Shown: positions 10,588 to 35,194 of the stretch, in pieces
Layout of the letters: every line of letters starts with the position of its first letter
How positions within the stretch are numbered: the stretch's first letter is position 1
Assembly: GCF_002287235.1 (NCBI RefSeq)
Contig: NZ_LMVP01000101.1
Location: forward strand, 1-45,142
Reading direction: 5' to 3'
Source of the DNA: Methanosarcina spelaei
GTDB taxonomy: Archaea; Halobacteriota; Methanosarcinia; Methanosarcinales; Methanosarcinaceae
DNA: 45,142 nt
The notes under the pieces: model-generated
Database searches by the model: none
What the model saw: the letters and a program-made list of their open reading frames with translations, nothing else
What the model was told of the DNA's origin: nothing
Position numbers and translations under genes: made by a program

Positions 10588-11598
10588 TTAAACAATCCTG
10601 GCCTCTATACAGATATTATACTGATGAGGAGCATACGAACGGACTACCCTTTTATCCAGAACCTCGATTTTTCTTCCTGCTTTTTCCGCAGCTTTCCTTA
10701 TGAGTTCTATAGAGCTTTCGAAGAGGTCGTCTTCAGGAGTTATTCCATAATAATGGATTATTCCACCGGGTTTTGTCAGGAGAACTGCAGAATCCAGGAA
10801 TTCAAAGGCGCTATGAGGCAAATTCATAATCACATGATCGGCACTGCCTGCAAACTTTTTTGCTTCTTCCCTGGCATCACCCTCGACTGCTTCAATGTTT
10901 TTTACAGAATTGAGAATTATATTTTCTCTAAGATAACGCACAGCATCCGGATTTTTATCGATTGCCAGGACTTTTGAAGGCTTTTTGCTCTTTGCGATCA
11001 GAATACTGTAAGGTCCGACGCCTGCAAACATATCGACAACAGTATCACCTTCCTTAATCCAGGAAAGGATTCTTGAGCGCTCGGTTGAAAGGCGGGGAGT
11101 AAAATAAGCCCGTGCAAGGTCGACTTTGTAGCGGCAGCCGTATTCCCTATGAATGGTTTCGGTTCTCATCTCGCCTGCAATAACCTCAAATTCTCTAACC
11201 CGGAATTCTCCGGTAACAGGAGTAAGAGGCTTGAGCACAGTTTTTATATTCGGCTGAGTCTGAAGTAGGGCATTGGCAATTCTTGAGGCTTTCTGCTTAT
11301 CAAGCTCAGGATCTTCCAGCAGGGCGATGTCCCCTATAACTTCATAAGCAGGGCTGAAACCAAGCAGGTTTTCCGGAACAGGTTTCTTTTCCTGGAGCTT
11401 GAAATCGAACTCGATAAACTCAATTTCTTCGGGAAAATTTTCAAGCTCATCAGGAACAGGTTCTCTGCTCAGGGGAAGGTAAAGAAATGCTTCATCTGAA
11501 CCTATTTTTACGGAATTATCCAGAATTTCAAGCTCAAGGAGTATTCTTCGAACAGTTTCTCCTTTCTTTTTAGGAACTTTTATGCACTGCCGTTTCAT
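10588..11598 (-). CDS. trm5b: tRNA (guanine(37)-N1)-methyltransferase, archaeal Trm5
   Basis: 336 residues. aTrm5 uses S-adenosylmethionine to methylate N1 of G37 next to the anticodon, which prevents frameshifting and is also the first step of wyosine synthesis. Order: an N-terminal D1 domain, then a linker region (NLLGFSPAYEVIGDIALL, EFRVREFEVIAGEMRTETIH), then a Rossmann-like catalytic domain with VDMFAGVGPYSI (about 190-201, SAM loop), VLAIDKNPDAVRYLREN, and the NLPHSAFEFLD motif corresponding to the NPP/Y catalytic loop. The C-terminal VRSYAPHQYNICIEARI is characteristic. Length fits the single-domain-D1 Trm5b/c types. The ATG at 11598 follows AAAGGCGAT. It is monocistronic and faces away from the next gene. 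Confidence 0.93.
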   Translation of the reverse strand: MKRQCIKVPKKKGETVRRILLELEILDNSVKIGSDEAFLYLPLSREPVPDELENFPEEIEFIEFDFKLQEKKPVPENLLGFSPAYEVIGDIALLEDPELDKQKASRIANALLQTQPNIKTVLKPLTPVTGEFRVREFEVIAGEMRTETIHREYGCRYKVDLARAYFTPRLSTERSRILSWIKEGDTVVDMFAGVGPYSILIAKSKKPSKVLAIDKNPDAVRYLRENIILNSVKNIEAVEGDAREEAKKFAGSADHVIMNLPHSAFEFLDSAVLLTKPGGIIHYYGITPEDDLFESSIELIRKAAEKAGRKIEVLDKRVVRSYAPHQYNICIEARIV

Positions 11599-11848
11599 GG
11601 AAAATCGCCTTTCGGAAGCCTAAGGCTATCCTTCTATTAATAAACTACCTCAAACTCTGTCTTCTTCGGTTACTTATCCGGTTATTTGTCCGATTTTACG
11701 TTTTAAACAAGCCTGAAAAGGTATGAGTAAATTTTCGGAAAAGGAAAATGCCTCAGAAACTTTGTTTCCAAAGGGATCTTTAATCCTGAGATTTATTTGA
11801 AAATAAGGTGAAAAACTCAACTTGACTTTAGGGGTGCTAAGATTGGTA

Positions 11849-12271
11849 ATGGGAGTAAGCATTAACCAGATCAGGAAAATCTCGCTTGGACTGCAGGTTT
11901 CGACCCTACTAACCTATATGTTTGGATTTACTGCGCTGAAGCTAAGCGGTTCAAAAAAAGAAGGAATCCAGAGACACGGGAAGATAAACACTTTAGGATA
12001 CACCCTGGGAGCCTTATCTTTACTGTATATGATGTACTCCGGATTAAGGCTCATAATTGCTAGGGCAGCTCCTGCAATGATGTATATTCACGGCATCTTT
12101 GGGCTTATAACTCTGGCTCTTAGCTCCTTATTCGTAGCTAACAGATGGAGCTGGAAAACTATCAAGAACATGAGGACTCTTGTAGTTTTGTTTCTGTCGA
12201 CTTTCAGCGGAGGAGTATACATGTTTTCACGGCTCTATAAACAAAGAACACCTGCAGAAAAGAGTGAGTAA
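11849..12271 (+). CDS. Four-helix membrane protein, function unknown
   Basis: About 140 residues with four predicted transmembrane helices. The segments are LQVSTLLTYMFGFTALKL, TLGYTLGALSLLYMMYSGLR, MMYIHGIFGLITLALSSLF and MRTLVVLFLSTFSGGVYMFS. Two histidines, in RHGKINTLG and YIHGIFG, sit near helix starts, a pattern also seen in small haem-binding or cytochrome-b561-like membrane proteins, but no family can be assigned. The start is uncertain: ATG at 11849 gives MGVSINQ; TTG at 11843 is better spaced (6 nt) from GGGGTG; the frame is open back to TTG at 11822. It is monocistronic and convergent with the LysE gene downstream. Confidence 0.6.
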   Translation: MGVSINQIRKISLGLQVSTLLTYMFGFTALKLSGSKKEGIQRHGKINTLGYTLGALSLLYMMYSGLRLIIARAAPAMMYIHGIFGLITLALSSLFVANRWSWKTIKNMRTLVVLFLSTFSGGVYMFSRLYKQRTPAEKSE

Positions 12272-12557
12272 AAAGAAATTACACCATCAGCGAATTTATA
12301 CCTAAAAATCGTTTACAGGCAATTACGAGTTTGCTGATAATTACTAAGCTGAAGAAGACCATCTATATTGAATTTTTACAAGATTTCTGAGTAAGTGGTC
12401 GCAGATAGTAACCAAAAATCCCAGAATAACTGATTAATCTGAGGAAAAATAATTTGGGACAACTAACCTGAGTACAGGTGAACTTTCGGGATAGTCGAAC
12501 TTAACTTTCAGAATAACCGAAGTTTCAGGGTATCTTAGCTTTCAGGAAAGCTGAAGC

Positions 12558-13214
12558 TCAGGATAAGTGAATCGAGTTATTGTAGTTAAGCATGAAGTAC
12601 AACCCAAAAATTACCAGGAATACCCCACAGGTATAAAGAATACATCTATGCATTTTTTGGGAAAGCAAGGTTTTACCATGGCAGAATGATCCGGATACGA
12701 CAGTAAACCATCCCAGGTCTGCAGTCCAGTGTCCGATCATATAAGCTATTGCAATTATAACTCCTAATTCATACTCCTTAAGTACAAGTGCACCACCAGC
12801 AGTCAGCCACCAGATCCAGAAGTATGGGTTAGAAACCGAAGTAACAAGACCAATCAAGCCAGGATTAGAAAAAAGCTTCAAGCCTGGAGATTCCTTAGAG
12901 GTTTTCACATATGAAGATGTAGATCTTGCTTCCTTTAAAGTAAGAAGCCCAAATACCAGAAGTGAAAGCCCTCCTAGAAGGAAAATTAAAGAAATCATGT
13001 CACTATCGACAAGCGAAGCAGCCCCTAAAAGAATCAACACATAGAGCACAGCTTCCACGAGCATATGCCCGAGTACCACCTGTGGGCCTGCAAGCCAGCC
13101 TTTCTTTAACGAAATCTCTATAGTTGCAAAAAGCATCGGGCCAGGAACGAGTGCGCCTGTAAGACCTACAGAGAAACCTAAAAGAAGAGCTTCCAAAACT
13201 TCAATTGTTAGCAT
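12558..13214 (-). CDS. LysE/RhtB-family exporter
   Basis: 218 residues with about six transmembrane helices. The family signature is near the N-terminus: LLLGFSVGLTGALVPGPMLF followed by ATIEISLKKGWLAGPQVVLGH, where the PGP turn and the GxxxGH motif are typical of LysE/RhtB amino-acid and related exporters. Later SVSNPYFWIWWLTAGG (about 125-140) is the second conserved repeat motif. These proteins export amino acids or analogues by proton-motive force; the substrate cannot be predicted. The ATG at 13214 has no strong ribosome-binding site. The gene stands alone downstream of the tfb terminator. Confidence 0.88.
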   Translation of the reverse strand: MLTIEVLEALLLGFSVGLTGALVPGPMLFATIEISLKKGWLAGPQVVLGHMLVEAVLYVLILLGAASLVDSDMISLIFLLGGLSLLVFGLLTLKEARSTSSYVKTSKESPGLKLFSNPGLIGLVTSVSNPYFWIWWLTAGGALVLKEYELGVIIAIAYMIGHWTADLGWFTVVSGSFCHGKTLLSQKMHRCILYTCGVFLVIFGLYFMLNYNNSIHLS

Positions 13215-13446
13215 TATGGATCAAGAACTTAAAGTGTCTAAAATTCTCTTTTGAAAATAAACCTCCGCAAGCAGGAAGATCCAGATAAATGTCTTGAATA
13301 AACAAACCAGTAAAAAATAGGGAATCTCTATTTTACAGAGAAAACCTACTGGCAAAAAAACAGGAAATTTAGAAACAATTTCAGTATCTCTTTCGATTAA
13401 CTTTTTAAAATTTGCATTGCGCAAATTAATCATGCTGCAACTCGGG

Positions 13447-13469
13447 TTTTTTCAAGCCTTTTGAAAAAA
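13447..13469 (-). terminator. Palindromic terminator after tfb
   Basis: Perfect inverted arms TTTTTTCAA (13447-13455) and TTGAAAAAA (13461-13469) with a 5-nt loop lie 9 nt beyond the tfb stop codon, with T-rich flanks on the transcribed strand. Confidence 0.6.
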
Positions 13470-13477
13470 GGTTTGAT

Positions 13478-14491
13478 TTAGAGAATAATCTCAATATCCA
13501 GTTCTTCTGCAAGCTCTTTATACCTGTTTCGGATAGTGACTTCCGTAACCCCGGCTACATCCGCAACTTCCCGCTGAGTTCTCCGCTCACCACAGAGAAT
13601 GGACGCAATATAAATTGCAGCAGCAGCAACTCCTGTAGGACCTCTCCCGCTTGTGAGCTCCTTTTCGGAAGCCTGCCTCAGAATCTCAACACTCTTGGAC
13701 TGGACTTCTCCTTTAAGGTTAAGGCCTGAACAGAACCTTGGAACGTAGTCGATCGGAGATGTGGGCATGAGCTTTAGTGCAAGTTCTCTGGAAATAAAGC
13801 GGTAAGTTCTTCCGATTTCTTTCCTGCTGACCCTTGACACTTCTTCAATTTCATCAAGAGTTCTGGGAACGCTGCACTGACGACAAGCAGCATAAAGAGC
13901 TGCTGCGGCAACACCTTCAATGCTTCTTCCACGAATAAGGTTCTTGTCCACAGCTTTTCTGTAAACAACAGCTGCCGTTTCCCTCACAGTTCTCGGAAGA
14001 CCGAGAGCAGAAGCCATTCTGTCCAGTTCAGATAGTGCAAATGCAAGGTTTCTTTCAGTTGCGTTACTTACACGAATTCTACGCTGCCATTTTCTTAAAC
14101 GATAGAGTTGAGCACGATTTTTTGAAGAGATTGACTTCCCATAGGAGTCGCGATTCCTCCAGTCAATCATTGTGGAAAGCCCTTTGTCGTGGATTGTGTA
14201 TGTCATAGGCGCACCCACACGGGAACGCTTCATACGTTGATCATGATCGAAAGCTCGCCATTCAGGGCCTTCATCCACAAAATCGGCGTCAATGACAAGT
14301 CCGCAGTCCCCACACACGAGCTCGGCTCGCTCATAGTCGTGGACGAGGTTTCTGCTGCCGCATTCTGGACACACGGCCTTTTCGTTCTCAAAACTTTGCT
14401 CCTTTTGCTTCTCTTTGCGAGCTTTGATCATGGCACGTATTTTTTCTCTTTCAAGAGTGTCCGAATAGCGAACTCTTTCGACTTCTACCAT
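13478..14491 (-). CDS. tfb: Transcription initiation factor B (TFB)
   Basis: 337 residues, full length. TFB bridges TBP/TATA and RNA polymerase and reads the BRE element. Zinc ribbon cysteines C41, C44, C60 and C63 ([19 protein letters not shown]) are followed by the B-finger/linker [19 protein letters not shown] and then two cyclin-like repeats. The second repeat ends with the helix-turn-helix segment [21 protein letters not shown]. The ATG at 14491 follows AAGGTGAT. It lies just downstream of gar1 in the same direction (about 190 bp gap), so it may have its own promoter. The N-terminus has a lysine/glutamate-rich extension of about 40 residues before the ribbon. Confidence 0.97.
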
Positions 14492-29895: not shown

Positions 29896-30825
<930 letters not shown>

Positions 30826-32454
30826 ATGCCAACAGTTATTCAATACCTTCTGGACAGATTAAAGCAACTGGGAATAAGGGATGTTTTCGGCGTGCCAGGA
30901 GACTTTGCATTTCCTATCAACAACGCCATATGTGACGATAAAGAGCTCCACTGGATAGGCTGCTGCAATGAACTGAATGCTGCTTATGCCGCTGATGGGT
31001 ATGCTCGTATTAAAGGTATGTCAGCACTATCTACTACTTTTGGCGTAGGTGAACTTTCCACGCTATGCGGTATAGCAGGCTCTTACGCGGAGTACGATCT
31101 CATATTCCACATTGTCGGAATGCCTAAAATGCAGGCACAGAAGAGACACGATATAGTACATCACTCGCTTGGCGACGGAGAATCCAGCGTATTTATGGAG
31201 ATGGCTGCGCCAGTAGTATGTGCGAGTACAATGCTTACTCCGGAAAACTGCGTTCAAGAAGTAGAGCGCGTTATCGAAACAGGCCTGGAGAACCGCCGTC
31301 CTGTTTATATTGCAATACCTCACGACTATGTGAACGCAAAAATCTCATCATTTAATGCGCCTGCAAGAAAACCTGTAAAAAGCGATCCTGCAACTCTTGA
31401 AGAAGTAGTCTCGATTATTGAAGGTAAACTATCTAATTCAAAGCAAGCCTGTATTATGCCGGGTTTTCTTGTTGACCGTTTTGGCATCAAGGATCTGGCT
31501 ATGGCTGTTATTAATGTATCGGGATTGCCTTATGTTACTATGGCGCTGGATAAATCCGTGCTTGACGAGACTAATCCCTCCTACCTGGGATTATATATGG
31601 GACAACTTATCAATCCTGAAATCCGGGAGTTTGTGGAGTCCTGCGACTGTATACTTGCCATAGGTACTATCCCTTCTGATGTTAACATGGGAATGTTCAC
31701 AGCAAAGCTGGATAAATCCCGAATTATCAATATCATGCCTTCCAGTGTTCATATAGGGCGTACTGATTACATCAATGTGAAAATGCTTGATGTACTGGAG
31801 GAACTTACCAGAAGGCTTAACAAGCGTACCGATATCAGAGGACCTTTGGCCAGACGTCCCGCAATTCCACGGGTAAATGCTGAGGACCCAATAACAGCTG
31901 ACTATTTATACTCTAAATACGCCGAGTTTTTTAAGCCCGATGACATAATCGTGGCTGACTCAACCTCATCCTTTTACGGGTTACTGCCTTTATTTTTGCC
32001 GAAAGGAGTTAAGTTCCAAAACCAGATACTCTGGGGAGCAATTGGCTGGGCTACTCCCGCTTCCTTTGGCACTGCACTGGCTGCACCTGACCGGCGAGTA
32101 ATTCTTATAACTGGCGAAGGATCACATCAGATGACTGCTCAGGAAATAAGCCAATTTTACCGCTATGGTCTAAAGCCTATTATCTTCGTGCTGAATAATC
32201 AAGGCTACCTGATCGAAAAAATGCTATCTAAAAAATTAGATTACTGCTACAATGACCTTGCAGAGTGGCAATATTATAAATTGCCAGAAGTATTAGGTCG
32301 CAATGAGTGGATTACAAAAAAGGTTACTACCTGTGAGGAACTTGATAAGGTCATGAAAGAGCTGGATAATGCTAAAACGGGTGCATACATAGAAGTAGTT
32401 ACACCGAAATTATCGGCTCCTCCGCTTATGGAAACGATCCACAAAAATTTATAA
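30826..32454 (+). CDS. Thiamine-diphosphate 2-oxo-acid decarboxylase (pyruvate/indolepyruvate decarboxylase family)
   Basis: About 542 residues, normal for the family. It would convert a 2-oxo acid such as pyruvate, indolepyruvate or a branched-chain oxo acid to an aldehyde and CO2. Catalytic features known from pyruvate decarboxylase are all present: D26 in FGVPGDF, E49 in CCNELNAAYAADGYAR, the His pair in KRHDIVHHSLGDG, and C-terminal GEGSHQMTAQEISQF...VLNNQGYLIE holding the Mg/ThDP motif (G-E-G-S ... N-N) and the active-site Glu. I chose the ATG at 30826, since GGTGAT lies 6 nt before it; the frame is open from 30805. Such enzymes are rare in methanogens, so acquisition by transfer is possible. 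No aldehyde or alcohol dehydrogenase is adjacent. Substrate cannot be fixed by eye. Confidence 0.9.
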   Translation: MPTVIQYLLDRLKQLGIRDVFGVPGDFAFPINNAICDDKELHWIGCCNELNAAYAADGYARIKGMSALSTTFGVGELSTLCGIAGSYAEYDLIFHIVGMPKMQAQKRHDIVHHSLGDGESSVFMEMAAPVVCASTMLTPENCVQEVERVIETGLENRRPVYIAIPHDYVNAKISSFNAPARKPVKSDPATLEEVVSIIEGKLSNSKQACIMPGFLVDRFGIKDLAMAVINVSGLPYVTMALDKSVLDETNPSYLGLYMGQLINPEIREFVESCDCILAIGTIPSDVNMGMFTAKLDKSRIINIMPSSVHIGRTDYINVKMLDVLEELTRRLNKRTDIRGPLARRPAIPRVNAEDPITADYLYSKYAEFFKPDDIIVADSTSSFYGLLPLFLPKGVKFQNQILWGAIGWATPASFGTALAAPDRRVILITGEGSHQMTAQEISQFYRYGLKPIIFVLNNQGYLIEKMLSKKLDYCYNDLAEWQYYKLPEVLGRNEWITKKVTTCEELDKVMKELDNAKTGAYIEVVTPKLSAPPLMETIHKNL

Positions 32455-32562: not shown

Positions 32563-32650
32563 TCTTCTTTATAAGCAGTTGCAGATATCTATTCTTCTTT
32601 ATAAGTAGTTGCAGATATCTGTTCTTTTTATAAGTAGTTGTGGAAATCCA
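32563..32650. repeat. 30-bp minisatellite (tcttctttataagtagttgcagatatctgt)
   Basis: Copies start at 32563, 32593 and 32623. The first two are nearly identical; the third diverges after ttgtgg and runs into the 3' end of the convergent gene at 32651. It lies between two convergent genes, the region where both transcripts end. Confidence 0.8.
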
Positions 32651-33154
32651 TTAGTAAGATATACTAAGTACTGACCTCGAAACTCTGTCATAAATTACCG
32701 AAATATCGCATCCGAATTTTTTTGCTACAATAAGTGCCACAACTCTAATGTCCACAAGGTAGGAAAGCCGGTCCTGCATGAAATTAATCTCTGAAACCAA
32801 CTTTTGCCGGTTTACCTCAATATCTGCAGAGACAAATTCCAGAACCTGCTCGAAGGAAATTTCTTCTTTTATCGGCACTTTTTCTCCAGAACTGCCCGGA
32901 TTTTCAAGAAAATTCTCCGACGGCTTGAAAGCATGCGGAAGCCGAATACTTTCCACATCAAAACCAGGCACAAGAACCCCATCTTTAAACACGAGAAGAC
33001 CTGCTTCAAGGGCTTTTTCCTTTACTTTTGAGGCAATTTTCGGGGGAAACCACTTCAGGTCAAAAGCCAGGGAATACTCAAAATCCTTCTCCGAAAGAGA
33101 AGCTGCAAGAGTTTTTTTAAAAGGAACGGAGACTACACGTTTAAGTTCTTCCAT
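32651..33154 (-). CDS. DUF2240-like archaeal protein, function unknown
   Basis: About 167 residues. An N-terminal winged-helix-like part (MEELKRVVSVPFKKTLAASL, then FDLKWFPPKIASKVKEKALE and AGLLVFKDGVLVPGFD) is followed by a charged linker. A C-terminal helical part follows (NRQKLVSEINFMQDRLSYLV, DIRVVALIVAKKFGCDISVI). The arrangement resembles archaeal DUF2240 proteins, which have no known function; the assignment is from memory of the pattern. The ATG at 33154 is chosen because GGGTG is 6 nt upstream; the frame is open to 33184. It may bind nucleic acid through the winged-helix part, which is inference. Confidence 0.7.
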   Translation of the reverse strand: MEELKRVVSVPFKKTLAASLSEKDFEYSLAFDLKWFPPKIASKVKEKALEAGLLVFKDGVLVPGFDVESIRLPHAFKPSENFLENPGSSGEKVPIKEEISFEQVLEFVSADIEVNRQKLVSEINFMQDRLSYLVDIRVVALIVAKKFGCDISVIYDRVSRSVLSISY

Positions 33155-33424
33155 TAACTGCACCCATAAAAATTGATCTGGCAAGGAGAGTGTAATAATA
33201 TTGAGAGTATAATGTTTTAAGTGTATAATATTGTTGAAGGTATACTATCATTGAGGGAATAATGTTGAAAATATAATATTATTGTGAATGTAATGAAAAG
33301 TTTAACGTAAAGAAGTATACAGAATCAAGAAATTCGAAATAAATACTCAAAAATTTAAAGTCTCCGGCCCAGGATTTTCTATCCTGAACTTCTGCCGGAG
33401 TAAAGTCTTCCTGATAATGGAAGT

Positions 33425-34996
33425 TTAGAGTGTCACAAGTTTGGCATCAAGGATTCCATCGACTTTCCGGACTTCCTCAAGGATTGGGTTAGAGACTTCA
33501 GAATCTACGTTCAGAACCATCATGGTCACGCCCCCAATTTCGGACCTGCCAACCTGCATACCTGAGATATTGATATTGTTTTTACCGAGCACCAGACAGC
33601 ATGGTCCGATAACATTGGGCCTGTTGATATGTTTGGCAAAAATCATATGGCCTGCAGGGAAGATATCTACTCTATCGTCATCGACTACGACGATCTTTGG
33701 TTCGTCTCCGACAACAGTGCCTGCAACCAGCTTTGTCTGGCCGTTGCTGCTAAGTTTGATACTGATAGTTGAAGAGTATTCCTCAGAAGATTCGGATTTG
33801 CTTTCCACGACTGCAATCATTCTGGATTTTGCAAGGATAGGAGCATTGACATAGTTGACTCCGGAACCGAGCGCCATCTCAAGCAGCCCTTTAAGAGCCG
33901 AGACTGTAAGAGGCCGTGTGTCCTTTCCTGAAATCTCTCCGTTGTATCCGATTTCGACTTTTTCATAGTTTCCGTCTACGAGCTGCCCTGCAATCTTGCC
34001 CATAATCTCCGAAAGCCTGATGTAAGGGGCAAGAACTGCCATAGCTTCCGGCTTTACTGAGGGTATATTGATTGCGTTCTTTGCAGGCCCACCTGTTAGG
34101 ACGGATGTTACTTCCTTTGCAATGTCTACTGCCACATTGACCTGAGCTTCCTGTGTGGAGGCACCAAGATGAGGAGTTGTTATAACGTTGTCATAATTAA
34201 GGAGAGGACTGTTAAAAGGAGGCTCCTCGACGAAAACGTCTATTGCTGCGCCGCCCACTTTTCCGCTTTCAAGAGCTTTTGCCAGGGCTTCTTCGCTGAT
34301 AATGCCGCCGCGGGCGCAGTTAATAATTCTGACGCCGGGTTTCATCAGGGCAAACTGCTCCTCATCAAGAATATTTTTGGTTTCTTTAATAAGAGGCGTG
34401 TGCACTGTGATATAATCAGCTGCTTTTGCGATTTCGTTAACTGTAGCGAGCTTGACTCCAAGCTCGACAGCCCGCTTTTCGGAAATAAAAGGATCATACC
34501 CCATAAGGTTCATCTCAAGCCCTGAAGCCCTTTTTGCGACTTCGGAACCGATTCTTCCGAGACCTATAATTCCCAGGGTCTTGCCTTTGACCTCAACCCC
34601 AGTGAACTTATTGCGTTTCCACTCCCTGGCTTTCAGGGAAGCATTTGCCTGGGGGATGTTCCTGGACATTGACATCATCATGGCAATTGTGTGCTCTGCT
34701 GCCGAAATCATATTGCCTTCGGGAGAGTTAGCCACAATAATGCCTTTCTTTGTAGCTGCATCCACATCAACATTGTCAATTCCGACCCCGGCTCTCCCGA
34801 TGATTTTCAGGTTGTCGGCAGCTTCGATAATCTTCTGGGTGACCTGGGTGCCGCTGCGTATTACAAGAGCATCGTAATCCTTAATTTTTTTCACCAGCTC
34901 CTCTTCGGAAAGCCCGGTGGAAACATCAACCGTAAAGTGTTCTTTTAGAATCTCCAAACCTTCATTGGAGAGTGAGTCGCTGACCAATACTTTCAT
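33425..34996 (-). CDS. serA: D-3-phosphoglycerate dehydrogenase
   Basis: 523 residues. It oxidises 3-phosphoglycerate to 3-phosphohydroxypyruvate, the first step of serine synthesis. Substrate/NAD domains: MKVLVSDSLSNEGLEILKEH, LVIRSGTQVTQKII, GRAGVGIDNVDVDAATKKG, GKTLGIIGLGRIGSEVAKRA (Rossmann loop), NCARGGIISEEAL, EEPPFNSPLL and TTPHLGAST with the catalytic His. After about residue 320 come the intervening substrate-binding domain and a C-terminal ACT domain (NVIGPCCLVLGKNNINISGM), the regulatory serine-binding type of long SerA. The ATG at 34996 follows GGAG by 8 nt; an open extension to 35026 is unlikely. TATA-like aaaatttaatatc precedes it. Confidence 0.97.
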   Translation of the reverse strand: MKVLVSDSLSNEGLEILKEHFTVDVSTGLSEEELVKKIKDYDALVIRSGTQVTQKIIEAADNLKIIGRAGVGIDNVDVDAATKKGIIVANSPEGNMISAAEHTIAMMMSMSRNIPQANASLKAREWKRNKFTGVEVKGKTLGIIGLGRIGSEVAKRASGLEMNLMGYDPFISEKRAVELGVKLATVNEIAKAADYITVHTPLIKETKNILDEEQFALMKPGVRIINCARGGIISEEALAKALESGKVGGAAIDVFVEEPPFNSPLLNYDNVITTPHLGASTQEAQVNVAVDIAKEVTSVLTGGPAKNAINIPSVKPEAMAVLAPYIRLSEIMGKIAGQLVDGNYEKVEIGYNGEISGKDTRPLTVSALKGLLEMALGSGVNYVNAPILAKSRMIAVVESKSESSEEYSSTISIKLSSNGQTKLVAGTVVGDEPKIVVVDDDRVDIFPAGHMIFAKHINRPNVIGPCCLVLGKNNINISGMQVGRSEIGGVTMMVLNVDSEVSNPILEEVRKVDGILDAKLVTL

Positions 34997-35194
34997 GTCA
35001 ATTTCTCCAAGTAATACAATAAACATGAGATATTAAATTTTAACAGAGAATACCAATTAACCTAATTGCACTTAAGCGTTATCACACACATAAAGAGCTA
35101 ATCCCTTCTAATTTCATCTATACTACAAGTTTTCTTCCCTGCACTATTTCCTACAAGTCTTATTATTTTTGATCTTTGGTTACCTTACAAATCT

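Follow-up and report, generated by a model that had tools for sequence, protein, structure and literature searches.

In characterized ThDP enzymes, the Asp of the GDG motif binds Mg2+, and within the 2-oxo-acid decarboxylase (KDC) family, pocket residues are poor predictors of substrate. For indolepyruvate decarboxylase (IPDC), PMC9045302 reports that E468 is essential and Ala387 important for substrate selectivity, and considers a substitution at position 542 an improbable reason for strong activity toward aromatic compounds. For one KDC from Proteus mirabilis strain JN458, a broad range has been reported, with 4-methyl-2-oxopentanoate as the best substrate and with pyruvate, phenylpyruvate, indolepyruvate, and branched-chain oxo acids also accepted (PMC10418658). 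The decarboxylation of keto acids to aldehydes is not commonly counted among the abilities of Methanosarcina, and our literature search, in which the locus tags tried were guesses, found no published account of a KDC from this genus. Here, we analyze a KDC gene in a 45,142-nucleotide stretch of DNA from Methanosarcina spelaei (contig NZ_LMVP01000101.1; hereafter, the window), which an earlier note had described from its sequence.

Family assignment and translation start

The TPP_enzyme N, M, and C domains all score above their Pfam cut-offs and jointly cover the full window protein (Table 1), and a phmmer comparison with the indolepyruvate decarboxylase 1ovm gave 385 bits over residues 4-540. 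The closest solved structures are headed by 1ovm and also include KdcA-type enzymes and yeast pyruvate decarboxylases. The top NCBIfam model is likewise that of indolepyruvate decarboxylase (TIGR03393), with a score of 471 bits that does not reach the equivalog cut-off of 946. In our tree, the protein groups with the PDC/IPDC/KDC family, apart from acetolactate synthases. By its sequence, then, the gene is a genuine member of the ThDP 2-oxo-acid decarboxylase family and very likely has decarboxylase activity; the three domains and the 1ovm alignment bear out the earlier note, which had proposed a full-length PDC/IPDC-family enzyme in a Methanosarcina chromosome. It is the only KDC of its source genome, which also carries three distant acetolactate-synthase-like genes.

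We place the translation start at 30826, since this ATG occupies a position that is common across the genus and is preceded by a GGTGAT/GGTGGT-like site. A second ATG, at 30805, was considered as an alternative start and rejected, as it is not common to the relatives. Scans for sigma-70 promoters and terminators gave matches no better than chance. About 110 bp past the stop codon, at 32563-32640, lies a 30-bp tandem repeat of 2.6 copies (TCTTCTTTATAAGTAGTTGCAGATATCTAT). An AlphaFold2 model built with seven related sequences had a mean pLDDT of 59 and a pTM of 0.48, and this low quality makes it unfit for a fold search.

Table 1. Features of the KDC gene and its flanks (window coordinates; residues numbered in the window protein)
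Feature	Position	Strand	Remarks
Ribosomal protein L18e ORF	29896..30495	-	Left flank of conserved site; true start inside ORF
TTTATA, possible archaeal TATA box	30751..30756	+	Putative; only close relatives have it
GGTGAT, Shine-Dalgarno-like	30814..30819	+	6 nt before ATG; GGTGAT/GGTGGT-like in most relatives
KDC coding sequence, 542 aa	30826..32454	+	Stop codon included; intact complete ORF
D26, catalytic Asp	30901..30903	+	Within subfamily motif GDFAFP; other KDCs mostly GDYNLxFLD; alignment
E49, Glu activating ThDP N1'	30970..30972	+	Alignment
H112-H113, HH motif	31159..31164	+	Alignment
F383-Y384, substrate-pocket residues	31972..31977	+	Aligned with A387-F388 of 1ovm
G430-E431-G432, GDG Mg2+/ThDP motif	32113..32121	+	Glu replacing Asp; alignment
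N457-N458 of Mg2+/ThDP motif	32194..32199	+	Alignment
E464, active-site Glu (E468 in IPDC)	32215..32217	+	Alignment; E468 role from PMC9045302
Conserved hypothetical protein (presumably DUF2240)	32651..33184	-	Right flank of site
serA, phosphoglycerate dehydrogenase	33425..35026	-	TIGR01327, 690 bits vs cut-off 454

Catalytic residues and the substrate pocket

To compare residues, we used an alignment of 49 KDCs, in which D26, E49, H112-H113, N457, and E464 match the catalytic positions of the family. The earlier claim that all catalytic residues are intact holds for these and for the NN pair, but its GEGS is noncanonical: the Mg2+/ThDP motif keeps NN while GDG becomes GEG, a conservative change that aligns E431 with D435 of 1ovm. 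GEG occurs in 22/22 sampled members of one subfamily, namely, the window protein, 18 other Methanosarcina sequences, Proteus L063, Streptomyces L064, and the viral contig L114, whereas the remaining 27 KDCs all have GDG. The same 22 sequences have in common AFP after GD(F/Y) and, close to the catalytic Glu, GYLIE. The Glu of GEG could itself be a Mg2+ ligand, and it might reduce cofactor affinity.

In the pocket, the IPDC triad T290-A387-L542 is replaced by V286-F383-I538. The Phe at the Ala387 position is found in all 19 Methanosarcina sequences, as well as in KdcA (6vgs), and the bacterial sister sequences have Ser. Given the part played by this position in IPDC (PMC9045302), the Phe mildly favors aliphatic or branched-chain acids over indolepyruvate. 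The indole-acetaldehyde route that had been suggested for this gene thereby becomes less likely.

Distribution and genomic site

A KDC of this type is present in 20 of the 31 Methanosarcina genomes at 74-93% identity, with 19 copies full length and one split across two contigs. Across the family's 13 remaining genera, we found only distant ThDP enzymes and no KDC of the window type. In a wider search of 393 genomes drawn from the phylum, 23 have a KDC, with scores of 224-329 bits in the 11 that are not Methanosarcina, and the phylum's other KDCs (L052-L060) are 30-32% identical to the window protein. Among the named controls of this search, M. acetivorans C2A has a homologue. The description of such enzymes as uncommon in methanogens therefore fails inside Methanosarcina and stands outside it.

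In KDC-positive genomes, the gene almost always lies between rpl18e and DUF2240/serA, and the order idi2-ipk-mvk-memo-rps2-rps9-rpl13-rpl18e-KDC-DUF2240-serA-RPA is held wherever there is enough flank; in KDC-negative genomes, rpl18e is followed directly by DUF2240. In two relatives, DUF2240 and serA are separated by an additional 2.4-2.5 kb, in the same place beside the KDC (L074, about 11255-13723; L076, about 11228-13696). One exception to the site is the G092 genome (contig C58, L082:9210-10850), in which the KDC has methyltransferase-like and tetratricopeptide-repeat genes in its vicinity; at least one relocation must therefore have taken place. Reading this second neighborhood for a partner gene revealed none that was obvious.

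Ancestry, losses, and selection

The Methanosarcina KDCs form a clade with 100/100 support, which groups at equal support with the Proteus, Streptomyces, and L114 sequences (50-53% identity), and the whole group is nested among the bacterial and fungal members in the family tree. Bacterial sampling here consisted of plasmid-collection records and one viral contig. Constraining all archaeal KDCs to a single clade costs 255 log-likelihood units and is rejected (p-AU 1e-41). The earlier note had named in advance, as a result that would speak against it, a placement with vertically inherited archaeal ThDP enzymes that have a different function; the protein instead stands beside bacterial sequences inside the KDC family. 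Matches in the phage collection are more distant than those to Proteus and Streptomyces. The viral-collection contig itself, apparently actinobacterial-phage-like and carrying cell-wall hydrolase-type genes, encodes a GEG-subfamily KDC (L114:568-2232) that is 61% identical to Streptomyces L064.

When mapped onto a tree built from eight concatenated neighboring genes, KDC presence and absence require five changes, four of which are forced by well-supported branches. The bacterial grouping, the rejected archaeal clade, and the distribution within the genus point to an old transfer from bacteria followed by several losses. Since both deep clades of Methanosarcina share one insertion site, the simplest reading is that the gene would have been gained once at the rpl18e-DUF2240 site, no later than the early diversification of the genus, and then lost several times; homologous recombination within the genus may also have spread it. 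Between the window KDC and 17 relatives, dN/dS is 0.11-0.16, which indicates that retained copies are under purifying selection.

Partner enzymes

No alcohol or aldehyde dehydrogenase was found among the genes near the window KDC, and the adjacent serA is a phosphoglycerate dehydrogenase, in agreement with the earlier note that no partner dehydrogenase lies nearby. Elsewhere in the genomes, aldehyde dehydrogenase genes occur in 31/31 Methanosarcina genomes and AOR-type genes in 29/31. The AOR profile across genomes showed no link with KDC, nor, by inspection, was there an obvious link for Zn-ADH.

An iron alcohol dehydrogenase (Fe-ADH; PF00465, about 386 aa), nearest to lactaldehyde-reductase and L-threonine-dehydrogenase models but below their cut-offs, is present in 14/17 genomes with the KDC versus 2/8 without it in the species-tree set (Fisher p 0.01). 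In an independent-pairs test, two to three of four pairs were concordant and none discordant, which is not significant, and several families were examined. As such, Fe-ADH as the KDC partner is a lead only.

In the G000 genome (contig C97), a ThDP enzyme (L131:2237-3871) that scores above the cut-off for acetolactate synthase NF006187 is closely preceded by an aldehyde dehydrogenase (L131:553-1956; nearest the NADP succinic-semialdehyde dehydrogenase model, below cut-off). These two make a more obvious pair than anything near the KDC.

Possible functions of the enzyme

The resemblance to IPDC suggests a dedicated indolepyruvate or phenylpyruvate decarboxylase yielding indole-acetaldehyde or phenylacetaldehyde, and both the top NCBIfam and PDB matches, together with the small Ser that the bacterial sisters have in place of Ala387, fit such a role. 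However, the TIGR03393 score is far under its cut-off, the Methanosarcina sequences uniformly carry Phe at a position that matters for selectivity (PMC9045302), and neither an aromatic aminotransferase nor an aldehyde dehydrogenase is linked to the gene, so that we regard this role as unlikely. We are equally doubtful of a pyruvate decarboxylase whose acetaldehyde would go on to ethanol or acetate. The bulky Phe/Tyr/Ile of the pocket and the co-occurrence with Fe-ADH are consistent with it, as is the pyruvate-linked setting of the close Proteus homologue, beside a CidR-like LysR regulator and a D-lactate dehydrogenase; but that homologue lacks the Phe/Tyr pair, and therefore its gene context may not carry over. 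In addition, the Methanosarcina KDCs lack the pocket Trp and Tyr of the Gluconobacter/Granulicella PDC clade and are far from it in the tree.

The GEG motif, found in all 22 sampled subfamily members along with the AFP and GYL changes, could instead mark a changed function, such as altered metal use, carboligation, or a non-catalytic role. Since Glu is also able to bind metal and all other catalytic residues are retained, this is highly improbable. A related proposal keeps the decarboxylase activity and makes the enzyme a distinct type, in which the Glu ligand and the changed pocket would reflect an undescribed substrate or metal preference within a lineage-specific aldehyde pathway, with the unlinked Fe-ADH as partner; we think this quite unlikely. 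As for a ThDP enzyme with another function that was inherited vertically within the archaea, the occurrence of other KDCs in the phylum speaks in its favor, but these form a separate clade, a single archaeal clade is rejected, and the gene is absent from the 13 other genera of the family, which leaves this origin with almost no probability.

Our preferred reading, to which we assign a probability of roughly 0.55, is a functional ThDP/Mg2+ decarboxylase of bacterial ancestry, broad in range and leaning toward aliphatic and branched-chain substrates, that would hand its aldehyde to unlinked enzymes. In this functional decarboxylase, ThDP would lie between the PYR and PP domains and be activated by E49; the C2 carbanion would add to the 2-oxo acid, CO2 would leave, and the D26/HH/E464 set would protonate the intermediate, leading to aldehyde release. 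The choice of substrate is the weakest step: we infer aliphatic or branched-chain acids, 2-oxoisocaproate and 2-oxoisovalerate among them, within a broad range that may extend to some pyruvate and phenylpyruvate activity. The Phe in common with KdcA and the preference reported for the JN458 enzyme (PMC10418658) speak for this choice. The enzyme could serve as an overflow or Ehrlich-type outlet, its aldehyde being either reduced by the unlinked iron alcohol dehydrogenase or oxidized by general aldehyde dehydrogenases or aldehyde:ferredoxin oxidoreductase.

A decarboxylase that is under selection and conserved in two thirds of the genus would imply an aldehyde flow that metabolic models may miss. 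Close species with and without the gene allow a direct physiological comparison, and the enzyme offers a natural test case for Glu as the metal ligand of a ThDP enzyme.

Comparison with known systems

The window protein resembles 1ovm (TIGR03393) in its full-length alignment, its D/E/HH/E residues, and its three domains, at about 37-39% identity, and differs from it in having GEG rather than GDG, V-F-I rather than the T-A-L triad, and AFP rather than NLQF, as well as in scoring below the equivalog cut-off. With the KdcA-type branched-chain decarboxylase 6vgs (about 36% identity), it has in common the catalytic set and the Phe at the pocket-limiting position; 6vgs, however, has GDG, KdcA/KivD form a separate clade, and at the 383 position of this comparison 6vgs has Gln and the window enzyme Ser.

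Gluconobacter/Zymomonas-type pyruvate decarboxylases are alike in predicted reaction type and catalytic residues, but are only 28% identical and form a clade, with pocket Trp and Tyr and with GDG, outside which the window protein falls. The phylum's other KDCs (L052-L060) belong to the same superfamily and have the HH motif, but they too have GDG, along with other pocket residues. P. mirabilis has two KDC genes, L063, which is 53% identical to the window protein, and the divergent L117 (32%). L063, which may be the PmKDC that was assayed from strain JN458, belongs to the sister group in the tree and carries the GEGSHQ, AFP, and GYLIE signatures, and it differs from the window enzyme in having Ser-Met rather than Phe-Tyr in its pocket and in being encoded divergently from a LysR regulator gene.
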